Assembly: GCA_021797915.1 (NCBI GenBank)
Contig: JAJZYT010000007.1
Span: 1-64,000 of the forward strand
Origin: Thermoplasmata archaeon
GTDB taxonomy: Archaea; Thermoplasmatota; Thermoplasmata; Thermoplasmatales; GCA-001856825
DNA: 64,000 nt
Direction of reading: 5' to 3'
Shown: positions 2,755 through 12,496 of the stretch, in pieces
How positions within the stretch are numbered: the first letter of the stretch is position 1
Layout: every line of letters starts with the position of its first letter
Notes under the pieces: model-generated
Database searches by the model: none
Seen by the model: only the letters and a program-made list of their open reading frames with translations
What the model was told of the DNA's origin: nothing
Position numbers and translations under genes: made by a program

Positions 2755-3324
2755 ATGCCGTTAGAAGAAATTCTCGACAGAATACAAAAGGACACGGAAA
2801 AGGAAGAGCAAGCTCTCATCAGTAAGAGTGAAGAGGAAGCAAGGAAAATAATTGAAGATGCAAAGAACAAGGCGTCTGCAATAAGGGCCAGCTATGATGA
2901 GAAGGCAAGGGAAGACGCCGAAACTGAAAAGAGACAGAGAACTTCTTCGGCAACTCTTGAGGGTAGGTCTTTCCTAGAACAGGAAAGGGAAAAGATCGAG
3001 AATAATTATCAGGAAGCCCTTCGATCTAAGTTAGTGGATTTACTGAAAACAGACGAGTACTTGGAATTCCTTAAGAAGGCGATTGGCAACTCTAAGAAAA
3101 TACTGGGCCAGGACGCTGTGGTGTACCTGAACAAGGACGATTCCGCGAGGATGATGGAAAAGGGGATCGCATCGAGCAAGACTTCGGACAAGATCGGTCA
3201 ACTCGGAGGAGTCATAGTCACTTCTGCAGATGGGAAGATGATCATAGATCTGACTTTTTCAGAGATCGTGAGGAACAATAGCGACAAGATAAGAAAGGTT
3301 GTAAGGGACCACATCAACGGGTGA
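2755..3324 (+). CDS. atpE: A-type ATP synthase subunit E
   Basis: N-terminal coiled coil plus GGVIVTSADGKMIIDLTFSEIV C-terminal motif; position in operon. Confidence 0.9.
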   Translation: MPLEEILDRIQKDTEKEEQALISKSEEEARKIIEDAKNKASAIRASYDEKAREDAETEKRQRTSSATLEGRSFLEQEREKIENNYQEALRSKLVDLLKTDEYLEFLKKAIGNSKKILGQDAVVYLNKDDSARMMEKGIASSKTSDKIGQLGGVIVTSADGKMIIDLTFSEIVRNNSDKIRKVVRDHING

Positions 3325-3328
3325 TCTT

Positions 3329-4390
3329 TTGCAGAATTCTTTCGGTCTTCCTTTTGGTACCCTGAAAGTCACCAAGACGCAGTTTCTCCAGAGGAAGGAC
3401 TTCGAAGAAATGTACAGACTCTCCAACCCGGAAGATTTTGTTTCCTACGTCAACGGACACGGCTACAGTGAAGACATTTCAGAGTCATCAGATTACAAGG
3501 GACTGGACCTCCTGGAATCAGCCAACAACCTTCACCTTGCAAAGATGAATAGACGTGCTCTGACGGTCACCCCACAGAATGGTAAAGACCTGATAGTTTC
3601 GTTCCTCACCAAGTGGGATATACAGAACATCAAGACGATTCTGGTTTCCAAGAACCTCAATCTGAAGATCGAGGAGAACGCTCTTTATCTCGTTTCGGAG
3701 ACCAACACCCAGCTGGGAGTCTTTGCAGGGCTCCTGGACAGGAACGACTACCACAACCTCATCGCAATGGACAACGTGGAGGACATCATCTCCTACACGC
3801 TCAAATTTGGATATGGAAAGGCGCTCCTCGCTTATATGGACGAGTACAGGAAGACGAACAACATTGCAGCCCTGCTCCTTTCGCTCGACCTCTACTATTT
3901 CGACCTGATGAAGGAGAGGTTCAGATTTTATTCAGGGAGTGAGGGACCGATATTCAGATTCATAAAGAGGACGATAGACGTAAAGAACATAATGACAATC
4001 CTGAAGTTCATCGAGTTCAAGGCGAACCACAACGTCTCAAACTACCTTTTGACGGGAGGCAGCCTGTCGAGCCAAGTGGTGGATGATCTCGCCAAGAGCA
4101 CCGACGTAGAGGAGCTCAGCCAAAAGATCAAAGGGTATACTGACTTTTCCAAGGGATTCGATTTCTACAAGAGAAAGGGTTCGCTTGTTGGCATCGAGGG
4201 TGAGCTTAACAGGAACCTCTACTGGGAGTTCGTTAACATCATGGAAATGAGTGCCCTCTCACTGAACAACATAATCGCATTCCTGCTGAGAGCGGAGGCT
4301 GAGTGGAAAGATATCAGAAATTTGGCATTCAGCAGATACTATGCCATAGACGATGAAACAATTAAAATGACAACAATCAATCTGGGGTGA
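3329..4390 (+). CDS. atpC: A-type ATP synthase subunit C
   Basis: 353 aa, vATP-synt_AC39-like, TTG start; operon position. Confidence 0.88.
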   Translation: MQNSFGLPFGTLKVTKTQFLQRKDFEEMYRLSNPEDFVSYVNGHGYSEDISESSDYKGLDLLESANNLHLAKMNRRALTVTPQNGKDLIVSFLTKWDIQNIKTILVSKNLNLKIEENALYLVSETNTQLGVFAGLLDRNDYHNLIAMDNVEDIISYTLKFGYGKALLAYMDEYRKTNNIAALLLSLDLYYFDLMKERFRFYSGSEGPIFRFIKRTIDVKNIMTILKFIEFKANHNVSNYLLTGGSLSSQVVDDLAKSTDVEELSQKIKGYTDFSKGFDFYKRKGSLVGIEGELNRNLYWEFVNIMEMSALSLNNIIAFLLRAEAEWKDIRNLAFSRYYAIDDETIKMTTINLG

Positions 4391-4731
4391 AAAAAATGGT
4401 GAAGGATGAACGGTTTGGAAGAATTGCTTTCATAGGGGAAAGGGAACTGGCCATCGGCTTCAAGCTGGTGGGCGTCGAGGACACATTCATAGTCGACAAA
4501 GATTCCTATGCAGACAAGCTCAGGGAGCTTTACCATTCCGGAAACTTCGGGTTGATCCTTGCGTCAAACAGCTTTGCTGGGACCCTGGACAAGAAATTCA
4601 CGAGTCTACTCTACAGCAGCGTTTCACCTCTTGTCGTTTTCATACCCGTGACAGAGGGAGCTGAGGAAGAGGGTATTTCAAACCTCGCAAGAAGGGTATT
4701 GGGTATAAACATGGACCTAGGAGGAATGTAA
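4387..4731 (+). CDS. atpF: A-type ATP synthase subunit F
   Basis: IAFIGERELAIGFKLVGVEDTF... typical subunit F; ATGA-type overlap with subunit C. Confidence 0.93.
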   Translation: MKKMVKDERFGRIAFIGERELAIGFKLVGVEDTFIVDKDSYADKLRELYHSGNFGLILASNSFAGTLDKKFTSLLYSSVSPLVVFIPVTEGAEEEGISNLARRVLGINMDLGGM

Positions 4732-7700
4732 ATGGGAAAGATATTGAGAATTGCTGGACCAGTCGTTATTGCGGAAGATATTGAGAATGCAAAGATGTAC
4801 GATGTCGTCAGAGTCGGAGAACTGGGGCTCCTTGGAGAGATCATCGGCATGGAGGCAGATAAGTCGACCATCCAGGTCTACGAAGATACGAGCGGTATCA
4901 AACCCGGAGAGAATGTTGAGTCGACGGGAAAGCCCCTGTCGGTCGTTCTGGCGCCGGGATTGCTCTCATCAATCTATGATGGAGTTCAGAGGCCCCTCGA
5001 TGTTATAAGGGCTCAGGGAGGGGATTTCATAAAAAGGGGGATTTATCCGACACCGGTGGATATGAAGAAAAAATGGAAATTCAATCCAACCGTCAAGAAG
5101 GGAGACAAGGTGTCTGCAGGAGATATAGTCGGCATAGTGAAGGAAACTTCGCTGATAGACCACAGAATAATGGTACCTCTTGGTATCGAAGGAACGATTG
5201 AAACGATTGAAGAGGGAGAGTTCACTCCACTACAAACAGTAGGTACTGTTTTGTCAAAGTCCGGAATCAAAGAAATTCCGTTGGGTCAGGAATGGCCAGT
5301 GCGTCTACCGAGACCCGTCAAGAGCAAACTCCCTCCAGAGATTCCGCTGGTTACGGGGCAAAGGGTTATAGACTCGTTCTTCCCCGTCGCAAAGGGAGGA
5401 ACTGTAGCGGTCCCCGGACCCTTCGGGTCAGGAAAGTGCGTGACAGGAGATACGCCGGTGCTCTTGGGCAATGGAACCCTAATAAAGATAGAAGACCTGT
5501 ATAAGAAGTACGAAAAAACATCGAGCAAGATCATAGATAAGGATGGAGAATACCTTGAACTTGTTCAACCGATAGACCTGTTTTCATACAAAGGAAACAA
5601 TATAGTCAAAAGCAGATCTAAATTAATATTCAGAGGCAAGAGTGAGAGTGTCTTTAAGATCAGAACTCGAACTGGAAGGGAAGTCAGAATAACTCCTGTT
5701 CATAAGTTATTCAAAGTTAACGAAAGAGGAAAAATAGAGGAGACTATGGCCAAAGACCTATCTCTTGGAAACTATATCTTATCGGCCAAAAAAATTGCCA
5801 TCAATAACCAAGATTCAGAGATCGATTTGTACAGTCTACCCGAAGTCCGAGTCCTGGATGAGGATATCAGAAAGAACGTATCGGAATTGTTGAAAAGAGC
5901 TTCATCAGAAAACATCAGAATTGAACTCCCGAAGAATGTACGGTACAGTTTGACAAGAGCTACAAAATCCGTTGCTCCAAAACTGAAGTGGGTAAAGATC
6001 ATTTATGAGACTATGGGGTTGACTGCTCCCCTACCTAGAGCTCTGATCGGGGATAGACGAAGCTCTACTGTAACTATCCCATCCAAAGTCACCAAAGAAC
6101 TGGCCGAATTCATCGGCTATTATGCCTCTGAAGGTTACATCAGGGGAGACGAAACGGTGGTCTTTACGAATTCCGACAAGTACCTGCTAGAAAGGTTCTC
6201 AGAACTTACATCTCTTGTCTTTGGACTGGATTCCAAGCTAGGACTACAGCAAGATAAGACTCCGAACGTCTTGGTACACAGTTCCGTACTGGTAAAATTC
6301 TTGGACTCACTTGAAGTAGGCAGGACAGCGTCAACCAAACAAATTCCAAACATTTTGTTGAAATCTAGCCAGGGAATTCTGAATGCATTCCTCGAAGCCT
6401 ATTTTATGGGGGAAGGATCATTCAGCAACGGGGAAGTCGAACTTTCAACTGCGAGCTTTCAACTAAGAAACCAGTTGTCCTATCTCTTGACTAGACTTGG
6501 AGTGATCCATACCTTAGGAACCAGAACGATTGAGGAAAAAACGTACTATAGGATATTTGTAAGGAGCATTGTCAATCTGAAGGAGTTTTCATCTATTTTC
6601 TCCAAGAATCTCGCAAAGATTTCATCGATTGCAAAATACGTCAATTCAAAGAGACGCGGCTTTGATTCAATCGATATTGCCCCAGTTTCAAAAGAATACA
6701 TGGCGGAAATGTACAGGAACACTACTTATTCAAAGCTGCTTAAGAACGGAATGGAGATTTATGACTACATAGGGAACAATGAAAACATGAGCATGAATAA
6801 ACTTACAAATTTCATGCAGATAGTGGAAGAAGCGAATCCTCAATTCCCAGAGGTTGATAATTCAATAACTGCCTCATCCGAGTCCGTCTACAGCGATGAG
6901 ATTTCAAGTATTGAAAGGGAGAATGGGCCAGTATGGGTGTATGATGTATCGGTTCCGGATGATGGACAGAATTTTGTTGGTGGGTATGGAGGAATCATAC
7001 TGCATAACACCGTAGTTCAACAACAGCTTGCGAAATGGTCCGATGCAGATGTTATAATATACACCGCATGTGGAGAGAGAGGAAACGAAGCCACGGAAGT
7101 GTTGACAGAATTTCCTAGATTGACGGACCCAAAGACAGGGAAGCCCCTGATGGAGAGGACGACCCTGATAGCAAACACTTCAAATATGCCTGTGGCGGCA
7201 AGGGAGGCCAGCATATATACCGGTATTACCCTTGCAGAGTACTTCAGGGATATGGGCTATGATGTGGGACTGATGGCCGACAGTACTTCTAGGTGGGCAG
7301 AGGCCCTTAGAGAAATTTCTGGGAGACTTGAAGAAATGCCCGGAGAAGAAGGTTACCCTGCATATCTCGGAAGAAGGATCGCGGAATTCTACGAAAGAGC
7401 AGGCAATGCCAGAGTCGTATCGAGCGATCAAAGAAGGGGATCTATTACCGTAATCGGGGCGGTATCGCCTCCTGGAGGGGACACTTCGGAACCGGTTTCC
7501 CAAAACACTTTGAGAGTCACCAGAGTCTTCTGGGCTCTCGACGCATCACTGGCGCAGCGAAGACATTTTCCATCGATAAACTGGTTAAACAGTTATTCGC
7601 TGTATTCCCAAGAATTGAGCAAGTGGTTCAACAAGAACGTTTCGGAGGATTGGTACTCTGCATATCAAAAGAGCATGACCATTCTGGAAAAAGAGGCGGA

Positions 7701-8058
7701 ACTGCAAGAAGTCGCACAACTAGTTGGGTACGATGCCCTTCCTGAGAACGAAAAGGAGGTACTAGATATTGCAAAGTCTCTCAGGGAAGACTTCCTCCAG
7801 CAGAGTGCATATGACGAGGTAGATACATACTGCTCTTTGAAGAAGCAATACCTGATGCTCAAATCCATCCTTGCCATGGACGAAATGGAGAAATATGCAG
7901 TGACAAAGGGGATGACAGTCTCAGAATTGGATTCGCTCGCATTCAAAGAGAAGATCTCAAGATTCAAGGAAGTGAAGGAAAGTGAAATTGACAGTTACTA
8001 CGGTGCTCTTATCAAAGAGATGGAGTCTGAAATCAAGGGAAGGGCTGATAAGCAATGA
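4732..8058 (+). CDS. atpA: A-type ATP synthase subunit A precursor with in-frame intein
   Basis: Extein V/A-ATPase A motifs ([34 protein letters not shown]) interrupted inside the P-loop. Confidence 0.97.
5437..7008 (+). mobile_element. Intein (524 aa) with LAGLIDADG-type endonuclease domain at the VMA-b (P-loop GSGK/T) insertion site
   Basis: Begins Cys ([10 protein letters not shown]), block B TPVHKLF, LAGLIDADG-like [14 protein letters not shown] and [14 protein letters not shown], block [17 protein letters not shown], ends ...GGIILHN followed by Thr. Confidence 0.96.
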
Positions 8059-9437
8059 ATGCTGATATAAGATACAAGACAGTTTCAAAAATTGCGGGAC
8101 CTCTGCTCTTCGTGGAGAAGGTGGACAACATTGGATACAACGAAATGGTTGAGATCACGCTCGGAAACGGAGAGGTACGACAGGGACAGGTTTTGGACAC
8201 GATGAAAGGTACTGCTGTAGTACAGATTTTCGGGGCAACTACAGGACTGGACACGGCGAATACCACGGTGCGTTTCAGGGGAGACATCGCAAGGATTCCG
8301 GTCTCTGATGAAATGATTGGGAGAGTGTTCAACGGGTTGGGAGAGCCACTTGACGGAATGAGCCCAATAGTTTCGAACGAAAAGATAGAGATTGTGGGGA
8401 ACGCAATAAATCCCTACTCAAGGGAAGAGCCGTCTGAGTTCATAGAAACAGGAATTTCAACAATCGATGGGATGAATACCCTGGTCAGGGGACAGAAGTT
8501 GCCAATTTTCTCGGGATCTGGACTTCCTCACAATAAACTCGCCGCACAGATTGCGAGACAGGCCAAAGTGCTGAGCTCTTCGGAAGGTTTCTCTATCATA
8601 TTTGGTGCGATGGGGATCACATCTGAAGAGGCCAACTTCTTCATAGATGAGTTCCGGAAAACAGGGGCCCTGATGAGGTCAGTTCTTTTCCTCAACCTAG
8701 CATCCAGCCCATCCATGGAGAGGATTATCCTTCCAAGGGTCGCACTCACTGCGGCTGAATATCTGGCTTACGAGAGGGAAATGCACGTCCTTGTCATCCT
8801 GACAGATCTTACAAATTATGCCGAAGCGCTACGCGAAATATCGGCCGCAAGGGAAGAAGTTCCGGGGAGAAGAGGCTATCCTGGGTACATGTACACCGAT
8901 CTCTCAACGATCTACGAAAGGGCAGGAAAGATCAGAGGAAAAAATGGTTCAATCACACAGCTTCCGATCCTTTCCATGCCCTCCGATGATATGACTCACC
9001 CAATCCCAGATCTGACAGGATACATTACGGAAGGACAGATTTTCGTGAGCAGGGAGTTGCACAGGAAAGGCATCTATCCCCCAATCAACGTTCTTCCTTC
9101 GCTATCCAGGCTCATGAATCAGGGCATAGGGAAGGGACGAACGAGAGAAGATCACAGAGGCGTCGCCGACCAGCTGTACTCTGCTTACGGTAGGGGAACA
9201 GACCTCAAAAGCCTGAGCGCCATAGTCGGGACTGAGGCGCTCGGCAAGGAAGACAGGCAATACCTAGATTTTGCAAATCTATTCGAAGACAAGTTCGTTA
9301 ACCAGGGATTCAACGAAGATAGAACGATAGAGAAAACATTGGATATCGGATGGGATGCCCTGTCTACGCTACCAGAAAGGGAAATGAAGAGAGTGAAGAG
9401 AGAATTCATTGACAGGTACGGAAAATGGGGGAAGTGA
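8055..9437 (+). CDS. atpB: A-type ATP synthase subunit B
   Basis: 460 aa; [21 protein letters not shown] and [35 protein letters not shown]. Confidence 0.97.
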
Positions 9438-9438
9438 T

Positions 9439-10080
9439 TTGGAAACATCCAACATTCGCCCCACCAGAATGGAGCTCCTGAAGACAAAGGGAAGAATCAA
9501 ATTGGCCAAGAGAGGGCTTGACCTACTCAAACTGAAGAGGTCTTCGCTCATACTGGAATTCTTCTCCATATCCAGGGAAGTGAAAGGGCTCAAGGGGAAT
9601 GTAACGGAACTGATACAGAAATCAATTGCAAGCGAGAGACTGGCCGAAATAGTATCGGGAAAACTCATCATAGAAAACACTGCCTTTTTCCAGCCTGGAC
9701 TGAAGGTTGATGTCACATCCAAGAACGTGATGGGGGTGAAGATCCCACAAGTATCTATGGCCAAACAGAACAGTTTCATGGACCAACTATACGAGCTTAT
9801 TTCACTTCCGACCGCGCTGATGGAGACGAGGGAAAACTTTGTAGAACTTCTGAACAGGCTGCTTGTGATTGCTGAAAAGGAGGTCGCAATGAGGAGGCTG
9901 CTCATAGAGATAGACAAGACAAAGAGAAGAACTAACTCGATAGAAAATGTGCTGATCCCAAGGCTGACTGAAACGGCCAGCTACATCAAGATGAAACTTG
10001 ATGAAATTGACAGGGAGACATTCATCACGCTCAAGGTCATAAAGGCCAAGATTGGGGAGAGGGGTGAGGAGAGCGTATAG
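9439..10080 (+). CDS. atpD: A-type ATP synthase subunit D
   Basis: IRPTRMELLKTKGRIKLAKRGLDLLKLKRSSL; start placed at TTG 9439 (ORF track opens at 9409 inside atpB). Confidence 0.93.
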   Translation: METSNIRPTRMELLKTKGRIKLAKRGLDLLKLKRSSLILEFFSISREVKGLKGNVTELIQKSIASERLAEIVSGKLIIENTAFFQPGLKVDVTSKNVMGVKIPQVSMAKQNSFMDQLYELISLPTALMETRENFVELLNRLLVIAEKEVAMRRLLIEIDKTKRRTNSIENVLIPRLTETASYIKMKLDEIDRETFITLKVIKAKIGERGEESV

Positions 10081-10192
10081 GTTCGCAAATCCCATGCAAA
10101 GAAAATTCTTCCTCGTGACCAGACTGATCCTGATTGCGAACGTGCTCATGTTCATGCTGGCTTTGATTATCATAGTGGAGGTTTTATCGTGA
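10064..10192 (+). CDS. Small membrane protein (42 aa) within the A-ATPase operon, absent from the ORF track
   Basis: GTG start; MRRAYRFANPMQRKFFLVTRLILIANVLMFMLALIIIVEVLS*; overlaps end of atpD by 17 nt and start of the next gene by 4 nt (GTGA); one predicted TM helix. Confidence 0.75.
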   Translation: MRRAYRFANPMQRKFFLVTRLILIANVLMFMLALIIIVEVLS

Positions 10193-10506
10193 CAAATGAA
10201 ATGGAAACCCTAAAGGCAATAAGAGAGAAGGAGATTGAATCGCAGAAGAGGATCGAGAAAGCAAGATCCAGAGGGGAAGAGATAGTCAAGAACGCAGCCG
10301 AAGAGGCAAAGAGAATCATAGCAGAGGCGGAAGCGATTTCGAAGAGGGCGTACGACGATCACGTTCGGAAGGAGTTGGAGGCGGCTTCTCTTGAGACCCT
10401 GCAGATCAAGAAGAGGTTCGGAGAACAGGCAGGCAAACTCAGGAAGGAAATTTCAGGGGAAATAGTCGAAAAAATTGCAAACATTGTGATGGAGAATAAC
10501 GATTGA
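10189..10506 (+). CDS. atpH: A-type ATP synthase subunit H (peripheral stalk)
   Basis: 105 aa charged coiled coil (KNAAEEAKRIIAEAEAISKRAYDDHV); GTG start; between D and I. Confidence 0.88.
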   Translation: MTNEMETLKAIREKEIESQKRIEKARSRGEEIVKNAAEEAKRIIAEAEAISKRAYDDHVRKELEAASLETLQIKKRFGEQAGKLRKEISGEIVEKIANIVMENND

Positions 10507-10507
10507 G

Positions 10508-12496
10508 ATGCTGGTTCCCAGGAAGATGAAGAAGGTCAGGATCTATTCTGTCAGGAAGAACGAGGAGGCCATCCTCTCTGCTCTTCATGACCTGGGCATC
10601 TTCCAGGTTGAGCCGGTTTCCATATCGACCGAACTCGTTTCGTCTATGCCTCAGAGCGAGTCGTATGCCAAACTGAGCGAACTTTCGAGAAAGATAAGGG
10701 ATCTTGAGATCTCCCTTTATCCCAGTGAGTCTGTCGACAAGAAACTCTTCAAGAATGTCAGAGAACTCGTTGACGCCGCCAAACAGATAGACATTTATGA
10801 TAGGATGAAGAAGCTCAAGGAAAATGAAGGGGCAGCGCTCTCTTCACTAAAGGTCCTCAACGAGAGCATTGCGACTCTCGAAAAAATATCGTTCTACGAT
10901 GGAGACCTCAGCTATCTCAACGGATCAAACGTCTCGTCGTATGTCATAAGGAATGACGAAGAGACTCTGGAAAAATTGCGCAGTTTTGGAAGGTTGTTCA
11001 TCTTCACTGGAAAAGATTACCTCATCTCTGTCGTGTCAAAATACGACCAGAGCAAGTTTGGCGAACTCTGCAAGAACGAGAAGATAGATGTAATTCCCGT
11101 TCCCTCCCTAACGGGGAGCGTTAAGGACTCTCTCTCTTCGGAGGAAAAAAGGAGGGATGATACTCAGGGAAGGCTGATCGGAATCAGGGATGAGATTGGA
11201 AAGATCTCGAGGGAGAATTATGCGAACGTCGCAGCCATACGAGAACAGCTTGAGATTGAACTCAAGAAAATTGACGTCACCTCAAAACTCTCCGGAACGG
11301 ATAGGGCGTTCATCATGGAAGGCTGGGTCCCCCACGACCAGCTCGGAATAATGAATGCCGCCCTGCACGGCGTGACGGATGACGAGATCATAATTGAAGA
11401 ATTGGAGACGGAAGAGACTCCTCCTACTTCCCTGAAGAATCCTAATGGAATCAGGCTGTTCCAGTTCTTCATTCGCTTCTACTCCCTACCTCAGTCCATA
11501 GAAATCGATCCAACGCTGATATTCGCGCTCGTATTCCCGATATTCTTTGGGCTTATGATTGGAGATGTTGGTTACGGAGTAACCATCCTGATAATCTCAG
11601 TGTGGTTGATCAGGAGGGTGGATCACCCACCGAAGAAATCTCACGTACCCAAATTCCTCGCAAGATTTGTCCTCATGATGATGAGCAAGAGAAGCCTGAA
11701 GATACTTGCCAAGGCGATGTTACCGGGTGCAATAATTGCAATCGCACTGGGAATAATATTTGACTCCTACTTTGGATTCACATTCCCTATTCCAGGCACT
11801 CCTCTACCGGGAGATCCTTATGCCACCTACGCTCACATAAATGTACTCAGCAGATTTGCCCTGGGGAAACTGCTCCTCATTTCCGGTTACACTGGAGTTG
11901 CAATGGTCAGCCTTGGACTAATCTTCGGCTTCATAATAAACTACGTCCATGGCCATATGAAGGAAGCAATCGGAAAGATTGGCTGGCTGATGGTTGCGTA
12001 CTCCATAGTGATACTGGGACTTGAAGTGATATATCACAACTCTGGAGGACTGAACCCCATTACCAATCATCTCGCGCTCTTGGCCTATCCAATGTTGGGA
12101 ATAGGACTTGGAGTCGTTATTTATTCGGAAAAGGCCCAGGCGTTGCTGGAAGTGACTACCATAATTTCACACATCCTCTCGTACACGAGGCTGGTGGGAA
12201 TACTCCTGGCTTCCGCTGGGCTGGCTTTCGTATTTGATTACCTCTTCAGGGGTTCACTCCATCATTCCATCCCGTTCATGATTCTGGGTTTCGTGATCCT
12301 GATAGTTGGTCAGCTGCTGAATCTGATAATAGCTATTTTTGAACCGGGAATTCAGGGTGCAAGGCTAATCTATGTGGAATTCTTCAGCAAGTTCTACAAG
12401 GGGAACGGGAAGGAATTCAAACCATTCGCATCTCCGCGAAACTATACCATAAAGCAATTTTCACTGGAGCCACTGGACGGAAACAGCAAGAAATAG
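10508..12496 (+). CDS. atpI: A-type ATP synthase subunit I
   Basis: 662 aa; large soluble N-terminus then FGLMIGDVGYGV and SHILSYTRLVGILLASAGLAFV. Confidence 0.96.
   Translation: MLVPRKMKKVRIYSVRKNEEAILSALHDLGIFQVEPVSISTELVSSMPQSESYAKLSELSRKIRDLEISLYPSESVDKKLFKNVRELVDAAKQIDIYDRMKKLKENEGAALSSLKVLNESIATLEKISFYDGDLSYLNGSNVSSYVIRNDEETLEKLRSFGRLFIFTGKDYLISVVSKYDQSKFGELCKNEKIDVIPVPSLTGSVKDSLSSEEKRRDDTQGRLIGIRDEIGKISRENYANVAAIREQLEIELKKIDVTSKLSGTDRAFIMEGWVPHDQLGIMNAALHGVTDDEIIIEELETEETPPTSLKNPNGIRLFQFFIRFYSLPQSIEIDPTLIFALVFPIFFGLMIGDVGYGVTILIISVWLIRRVDHPPKKSHVPKFLARFVLMMMSKRSLKILAKAMLPGAIIAIALGIIFDSYFGFTFPIPGTPLPGDPYATYAHINVLSRFALGKLLLISGYTGVAMVSLGLIFGFIINYVHGHMKEAIGKIGWLMVAYSIVILGLEVIYHNSGGLNPITNHLALLAYPMLGIGLGVVIYSEKAQALLEVTTIISHILSYTRLVGILLASAGLAFVFDYLFRGSLHHSIPFMILGFVILIVGQLLNLIIAIFEPGIQGARLIYVEFFSKFYKGNGKEFKPFASPRNYTIKQFSLEPLDGNSKK

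Follow-up and report, generated by a model that had tools for sequence, protein, structure and literature searches.

Analysis of the window (the complete 64,000-nucleotide stretch of DNA under study) revealed an A-type ATPase operon with the gene order K-E-C-F-A-B-D-[microprotein ORF]-H-I on the forward strand, with subunit identities taken from Pfam. The atpK gene for the proteolipid of the c ring (positions 2520 to 2750; PF00137, E = 7.4e-13) is followed by atpE, atpC, atpF, an intein-bearing atpA, and atpB (2755 to 9437; PF01991, PF01992, PF01990, and PF00006). The atpD gene, encoding subunit D, is located at 9439 to 10080 (PF01813, E = 1.5e-49); its longest ORF begins at 9409, and the TTG codon at 9439 is the inferred start. 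The gene for the peripheral-stalk subunit, atpH (10189 to 10506), was assigned by its position and by a match to PF16999 (E = 1.5e-5) that lies slightly below the curated cutoff. It is followed by atpI, which encodes membrane subunit a/I (10508 to 12496; PF01496, E = 1.2e-28). The atpA gene (4732 to 8058) carries a LAGLIDADG intein at the P-loop (GPFGSGK / CVTGDTPV ... GGIILHN / TVVQQQ), and its intein matches the intein splicing and LAGLIDADG_3 domains of Pfam. A 140-aa ORF on the reverse strand at 264 to 686 resembles, by eye, an IS200/IS605-type transposase.

Between atpD and atpH, a 42-codon frame on the forward strand (10064 to 10192) is bounded by a GTG start codon (10064 to 10066) and a TGA stop codon (10190 to 10192). 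The deduced product is MRRAYRFANPMQRKFFLVTRLILIANVLMFMLALIIIVEVLS. Since atpD ends at 10080, 17 nt are common to atpD and the microprotein ORF, and since the GTG start codon of atpH is at 10189, 4 nt (GTGA) are common to the ORF and atpH. Without the ORF, the interval between atpD and atpH would be 108 nt, while the remaining junctions of the operon range from -4 to +4 nt. Just upstream of the GTG start codon, within the end of atpD, the sequence contains a purine-rich stretch, gattggggagaggg (10050 to 10063, forward strand), that may represent a Shine-Dalgarno-like element; the region 5' of the microprotein start is kept G/A-rich in relatives. In ten same-genus genomes an in-frame GTG is found at either -16 or -7, always exactly one, and both occur together in 0 of 10. 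The initial annotation of this locus had described a GTG-initiated 42-aa ORF that overlaps both neighbors and fills a 108-nt gap in an otherwise abutting operon, and had assigned to its product a basic N terminus and one hydrophobic helix. The coordinates and overlaps were exact, the gap was confirmed, and the protein has an N terminus with a net charge of +6 and a single hydrophobic segment.

The coding potential of the ORF was analyzed across the ten same-genus genomes. No stop codon was found in the microprotein frame, in contrast to 50 and 4 stops in the other two forward frames. On the stretch that is free of overlap with either neighbor, the microprotein frame had a pN/pS ratio of 0.38, while the other forward frames gave 0.79 and 1.98. 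This degree of purifying selection is close to that of the start of atpH (0.40). Several of the closest informative genome pairs gave dN/dS values of 0.02 to 0.12, and the numbers of variable columns at the first, second, and third codon positions were 24, 13, and 31. Stops or frameshifts in close relatives, which the initial annotation had regarded as evidence against a gene, were looked for and none was found, and the codon dN/dS comparison that it had suggested revealed purifying selection. An antisense gene was ruled out by the presence of 6, 7, and 42 stops in the reverse frames. By all signs in the sequence, the microprotein ORF is a genuine, selected protein gene.

Loci of atpD were gathered from relatives, from the class, and from the phylum Thermoplasmatota (n = 131) and were inspected for an ORF that begins no more than 60 nt from the atpD stop codon and encodes a strongly hydrophobic segment (Kyte-Doolittle, 19 residues, ≥1.9). 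Such an ORF was detected at the 3' end of atpD in 109 of 131 loci and, when the cutoff was lowered to 1.7, in 111 of 131 loci and 26 of 41 families; percentages derived from these counts are only descriptive because the loci are a sample that was partly selected by the atpD match score. The background for the same criterion was 1.2% at random same-strand positions and 0.8% in shuffled downstream sequence. Within the order of the window organism, which comprises six of the families, the ORF was carried by 55 of 56 atpD loci (cutoff of 1.7). Across the whole set, the ORF and atpD overlap in 88 of 111 positive loci. The locus set appears to include Thermoplasma acidophilum, T. volcanium, Ferroplasma, and Aciduliprofundum boonei. 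The syntenic hydrophobic ORF that the initial annotation had expected in relatives is thus present throughout the order and the class, and the proposed wiring into the ATPase operon proved to be both real and old.

The placement "between D and H" that had been proposed for the microprotein gene holds for the Thermoplasmatales, where H and I come downstream of it, but not elsewhere. In at least six families, including the Aciduliprofundum-like one, atpD is the last gene of the cluster and no atpH follows, and the microprotein gene is still found behind atpD. Its presence where atpD ends the operon indicates that the gene follows D and is not a filler of the D-H gap. The conserved rule is therefore "directly after D," and the position between D and H is an arrangement of the Thermoplasmatales only. 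An ancestral order H-I-K-E-C-F-A-B-D-(microprotein) would fit both arrangements. Two genomes possess two atpD loci each, and a separate, divergent microprotein gene is located behind every one of these atpD copies.

Members of the Thermoplasmatales type are defined by a short polar/basic N terminus, one C-terminal helix, and a conserved F..N pair. The motif F-x10-N is invariant in 31 of 31 aligned sequences from the window's branch (A2) and the Thermoplasmatales branch (A3), and the window protein, with F15 and N26, belongs to the family by this definition. Profile-to-profile comparisons were evaluated against 100 permutations in which columns were shuffled separately within and outside the helix. 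A2 and A3 were linked with P of about 2e-6, and the Aciduliprofundum-type group (A4) was linked to the deep branch (A1), whose members carry an (F)(D)TPEKKAKL motif preceding the helix, with P of 2e-9 to 3e-8; both scores were above 100 of 100 controls. The bridge between A3 and A4 was weaker (P = 9e-4, reached by 0 of 100 controls). The direct link between A2 and A1 was weak (P = 1.2e-3, a value that 2 of 100 controls reached), so the window's branch is tied to the deep branch via the intermediate A4 group. Direct comparison of the A3 and A1 profiles was not significant. Taken at the profile level, the whole set of post-atpD microproteins likely has a common ancestry. The best explanation is that single-helix membrane microproteins form an old family, in which the microprotein of the window represents the Thermoplasmatales branch and whose ancestral position would have been directly after atpD.

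The predicted structure of the window protein consists of one continuous helix spanning residues 10 to 41 (block-mean pLDDT of 91 to 98, overall mean of 88). Its hydrophobic core covers approximately residues 22 to 40, with a net charge of +6 before the core and 0 after it; according to the positive-inside rule, this distribution predicts an N-in/C-out topology. In this topology the invariant residue of the Thermoplasmatales type, Asn26, is near the cytoplasmic third of the helix; most Aciduliprofundum-type sequences have a Gln at the position that, by eye, corresponds to it. Identity with a known family was also considered and rejected. Ten diverse members gave no match above the curated cutoffs of Pfam and NCBIfam, and 22 members of A1 gave none above that of Pfam; the best curated-family score was that of one member to DUF2768 (21.6 bits versus a cutoff of 23). 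Searches of the PDB with the family profiles returned only subthreshold or unrelated matches.

Family members were also found away from atpD. Among genomes lacking the ORF at atpD, the deep-branch profile detected single copies in five (E values of 4e-13 to 8e-7) and weaker ones in two more, and a broader profile added copies in a further two. Off-atpD members therefore occur in at least seven genomes, or in nine if the weaker matches are counted. Their neighbors are mixed, unrelated genes, so the link to the ATPase is not universal. No constant alternative partner was identified: tatC is nearby in only 2 of 9 unlinked copies, with the microprotein gene upstream of tatC in both. In one genome (G233), the gene that follows the atpD-microprotein pair is, by eye, pyrB, encoding aspartate carbamoyltransferase. 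One of the unlinked copies (G060) is likewise followed by pyrB, as identified by Pfam, which suggests that the ATPase operon moved off and left the microprotein gene behind. Three families yielded no detectable member at atpD or elsewhere in profile searches and appear to lack the microprotein altogether. In the genome of the window itself, no convincing second copy was found (next match, E = 0.55).

Taken together, the A-type ATP synthase probably has an overlooked membrane subunit or assembly factor in this microprotein, which resembles AhaG of Methanosarcina; the gene and its genomic setting are observed, and the role in the ATPase is inferred from them. The initial annotation had likewise proposed a small accessory or assembly subunit of the rotary ATPase. 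The gene and its old operon wiring bear out this proposal, while the role itself is the best reading of the sequence. According to the mechanism that we favor, the protein would most likely sit in the membrane in the N-in/C-out orientation, with a basic cytoplasmic N terminus and one transmembrane helix. The conserved polar residue (Asn or Gln) near the cytoplasmic third may mark a helix face for packing, and by this face the microprotein could pack onto the membrane sector, either at subunit a/I or at the proteolipid ring. Such packing would help to assemble or hold the membrane sector, with the microprotein either present in the enzyme as a small stoichiometric subunit or acting as an assembly factor, and the coupling of its translation to that of atpD and atpH would keep it in register with the complex. 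Should either role apply, current models of the archaeal ATP synthase would be incomplete.

The sequence alone cannot separate a subunit from an assembly factor. That the protein is an integral subunit of the A-type ATP synthase, homologous to AhaG and present in most of the phylum, is a tentative proposal; if it is true, the archaeal enzyme would have one subunit beyond the current nine-subunit lists. In a narrower version of the favored explanation, which we consider rather doubtful, the protein would serve solely as an assembly factor or chaperone of the membrane sector and would be absent from the finished enzyme. It would be comparable in idea to Vma21 or bacterial AtpI and would be needed during the buildup of the c ring or subunit a. 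The small size, the one helix, the uneven occurrence, and the ability of the gene to leave the operon are as expected for a trans-acting helper without fixed stoichiometry, but the tight overlap with atpD and with atpH within the order also suits a stoichiometric subunit.

It is unlikely that the protein is a general membrane microprotein with a function unrelated to the ATP synthase, for which the old transcript is merely common ground. The mixed neighborhoods of the off-atpD copies, 2 of 9 near tatC, and the A-type ATPase genomes without a detectable member are consistent with this explanation. However, the position directly after atpD has been kept in 26 families despite rearrangements of the operon, and second atpD loci have their own microprotein copy. 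The overlaps at both ends of the ORF could alternatively reflect a translated spacer that acts only in cis, coupling the translation of atpD to that of atpH through a dispensable peptide. This possibility is disfavored and very improbable, since purifying selection acts at the amino acid level, residues are invariant, and the microprotein is present where atpH does not follow. Moreover, copies elsewhere in genomes that lack the microprotein at atpD argue against a cis-acting spacer and indicate that the protein probably acts in trans. A chance open frame within an intergenic gap, as might be supposed for a short, GTG-started ORF without a database family, is refuted by its occurrence at about 85% of loci versus about 1% expected and by the frame and selection across the ten genomes.

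The favored reading, a small subunit or assembly factor of the ATP synthase, was compared with known systems. Eukaryotic V-ATPase subunits e and f (RNAseK) contain two helices each. They resemble the microprotein in being small and hydrophobic and belong to the membrane sector of a related rotary ATPase, but they form a two-helix hairpin, whereas the microprotein has one hydrophobic segment and a single helix (residues 10 to 41) in the model. Moreover, the A1 and A2 profiles matched no rotary-ATPase chain in the PDB, including e and f of solved V-ATPases, up to an E value of 1. The analogy to e and f drawn in the initial annotation is therefore weak. NtpH of Enterococcus hirae is a small product encoded after ntpD and, by this description, shares its size and gene position with the microprotein. 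MtrI of Methanosarcina mazei, which binds to a large membrane complex of archaeal energy conversion (PMC12774963), sets a precedent for a small protein on such an assembly, although the complex is a different one.

AhaG, which the initial annotation overlooked, is a closer parallel than e and f. In M. mazei, the gene that comes behind ahaD and closes the ahaA-ahaG operon encodes AhaG, a protein of 6.3 kDa; it yields two tryptic peptides above 900 Da, one of them very hydrophobic, and its membership in the complex was left unresolved (PMC4350412). In the Methanothermobacter cluster, too, ahaG is listed at the ahaD end (PMC3087415), whereas Methanosarcina clusters are elsewhere given as ahaHIKECFABD, with G omitted (PMC2838876). 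The gene list of the Methanomassiliicoccales contains nine genes without ahaG (PMC4153887), and AhaG orthologues were stated to be absent from T. acidophilum and from the Thermoplasmatales of acid mine drainage (PMC3750248). The ATP synthase gene lists of both the Thermoplasmatales and the Methanomassiliicoccales end at nine subunits, with AhaG counted as a tenth, and yet nearly every Thermoplasmatales genome examined has a small hydrophobic gene at the AhaG position. Annotation can miss a gene this short, and, judging from its peptide pattern, the product is easily missed by mass spectrometry. Members of the family have masses of 5.0 to 6.6 kDa, and each of six members gives one hydrophobic tryptic peptide above 900 Da; the T. 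acidophilum-like member (6.6 kDa) gives exactly two peptides above 900 Da, one of which is the helix. Compared with AhaG as published, the microproteins share the gene position right behind the gene for subunit D (111 of 131 Thermoplasmatota atpD loci), the mass of about 6 kDa, and the single very hydrophobic tryptic peptide. Contrary to the published absence, a positional and physical counterpart of AhaG is in fact present in the Thermoplasmatales. If the microprotein is a subunit or assembly factor, the old question of whether AhaG is a genuine component of the enzyme would become testable in organisms such as Thermoplasma or Aciduliprofundum.
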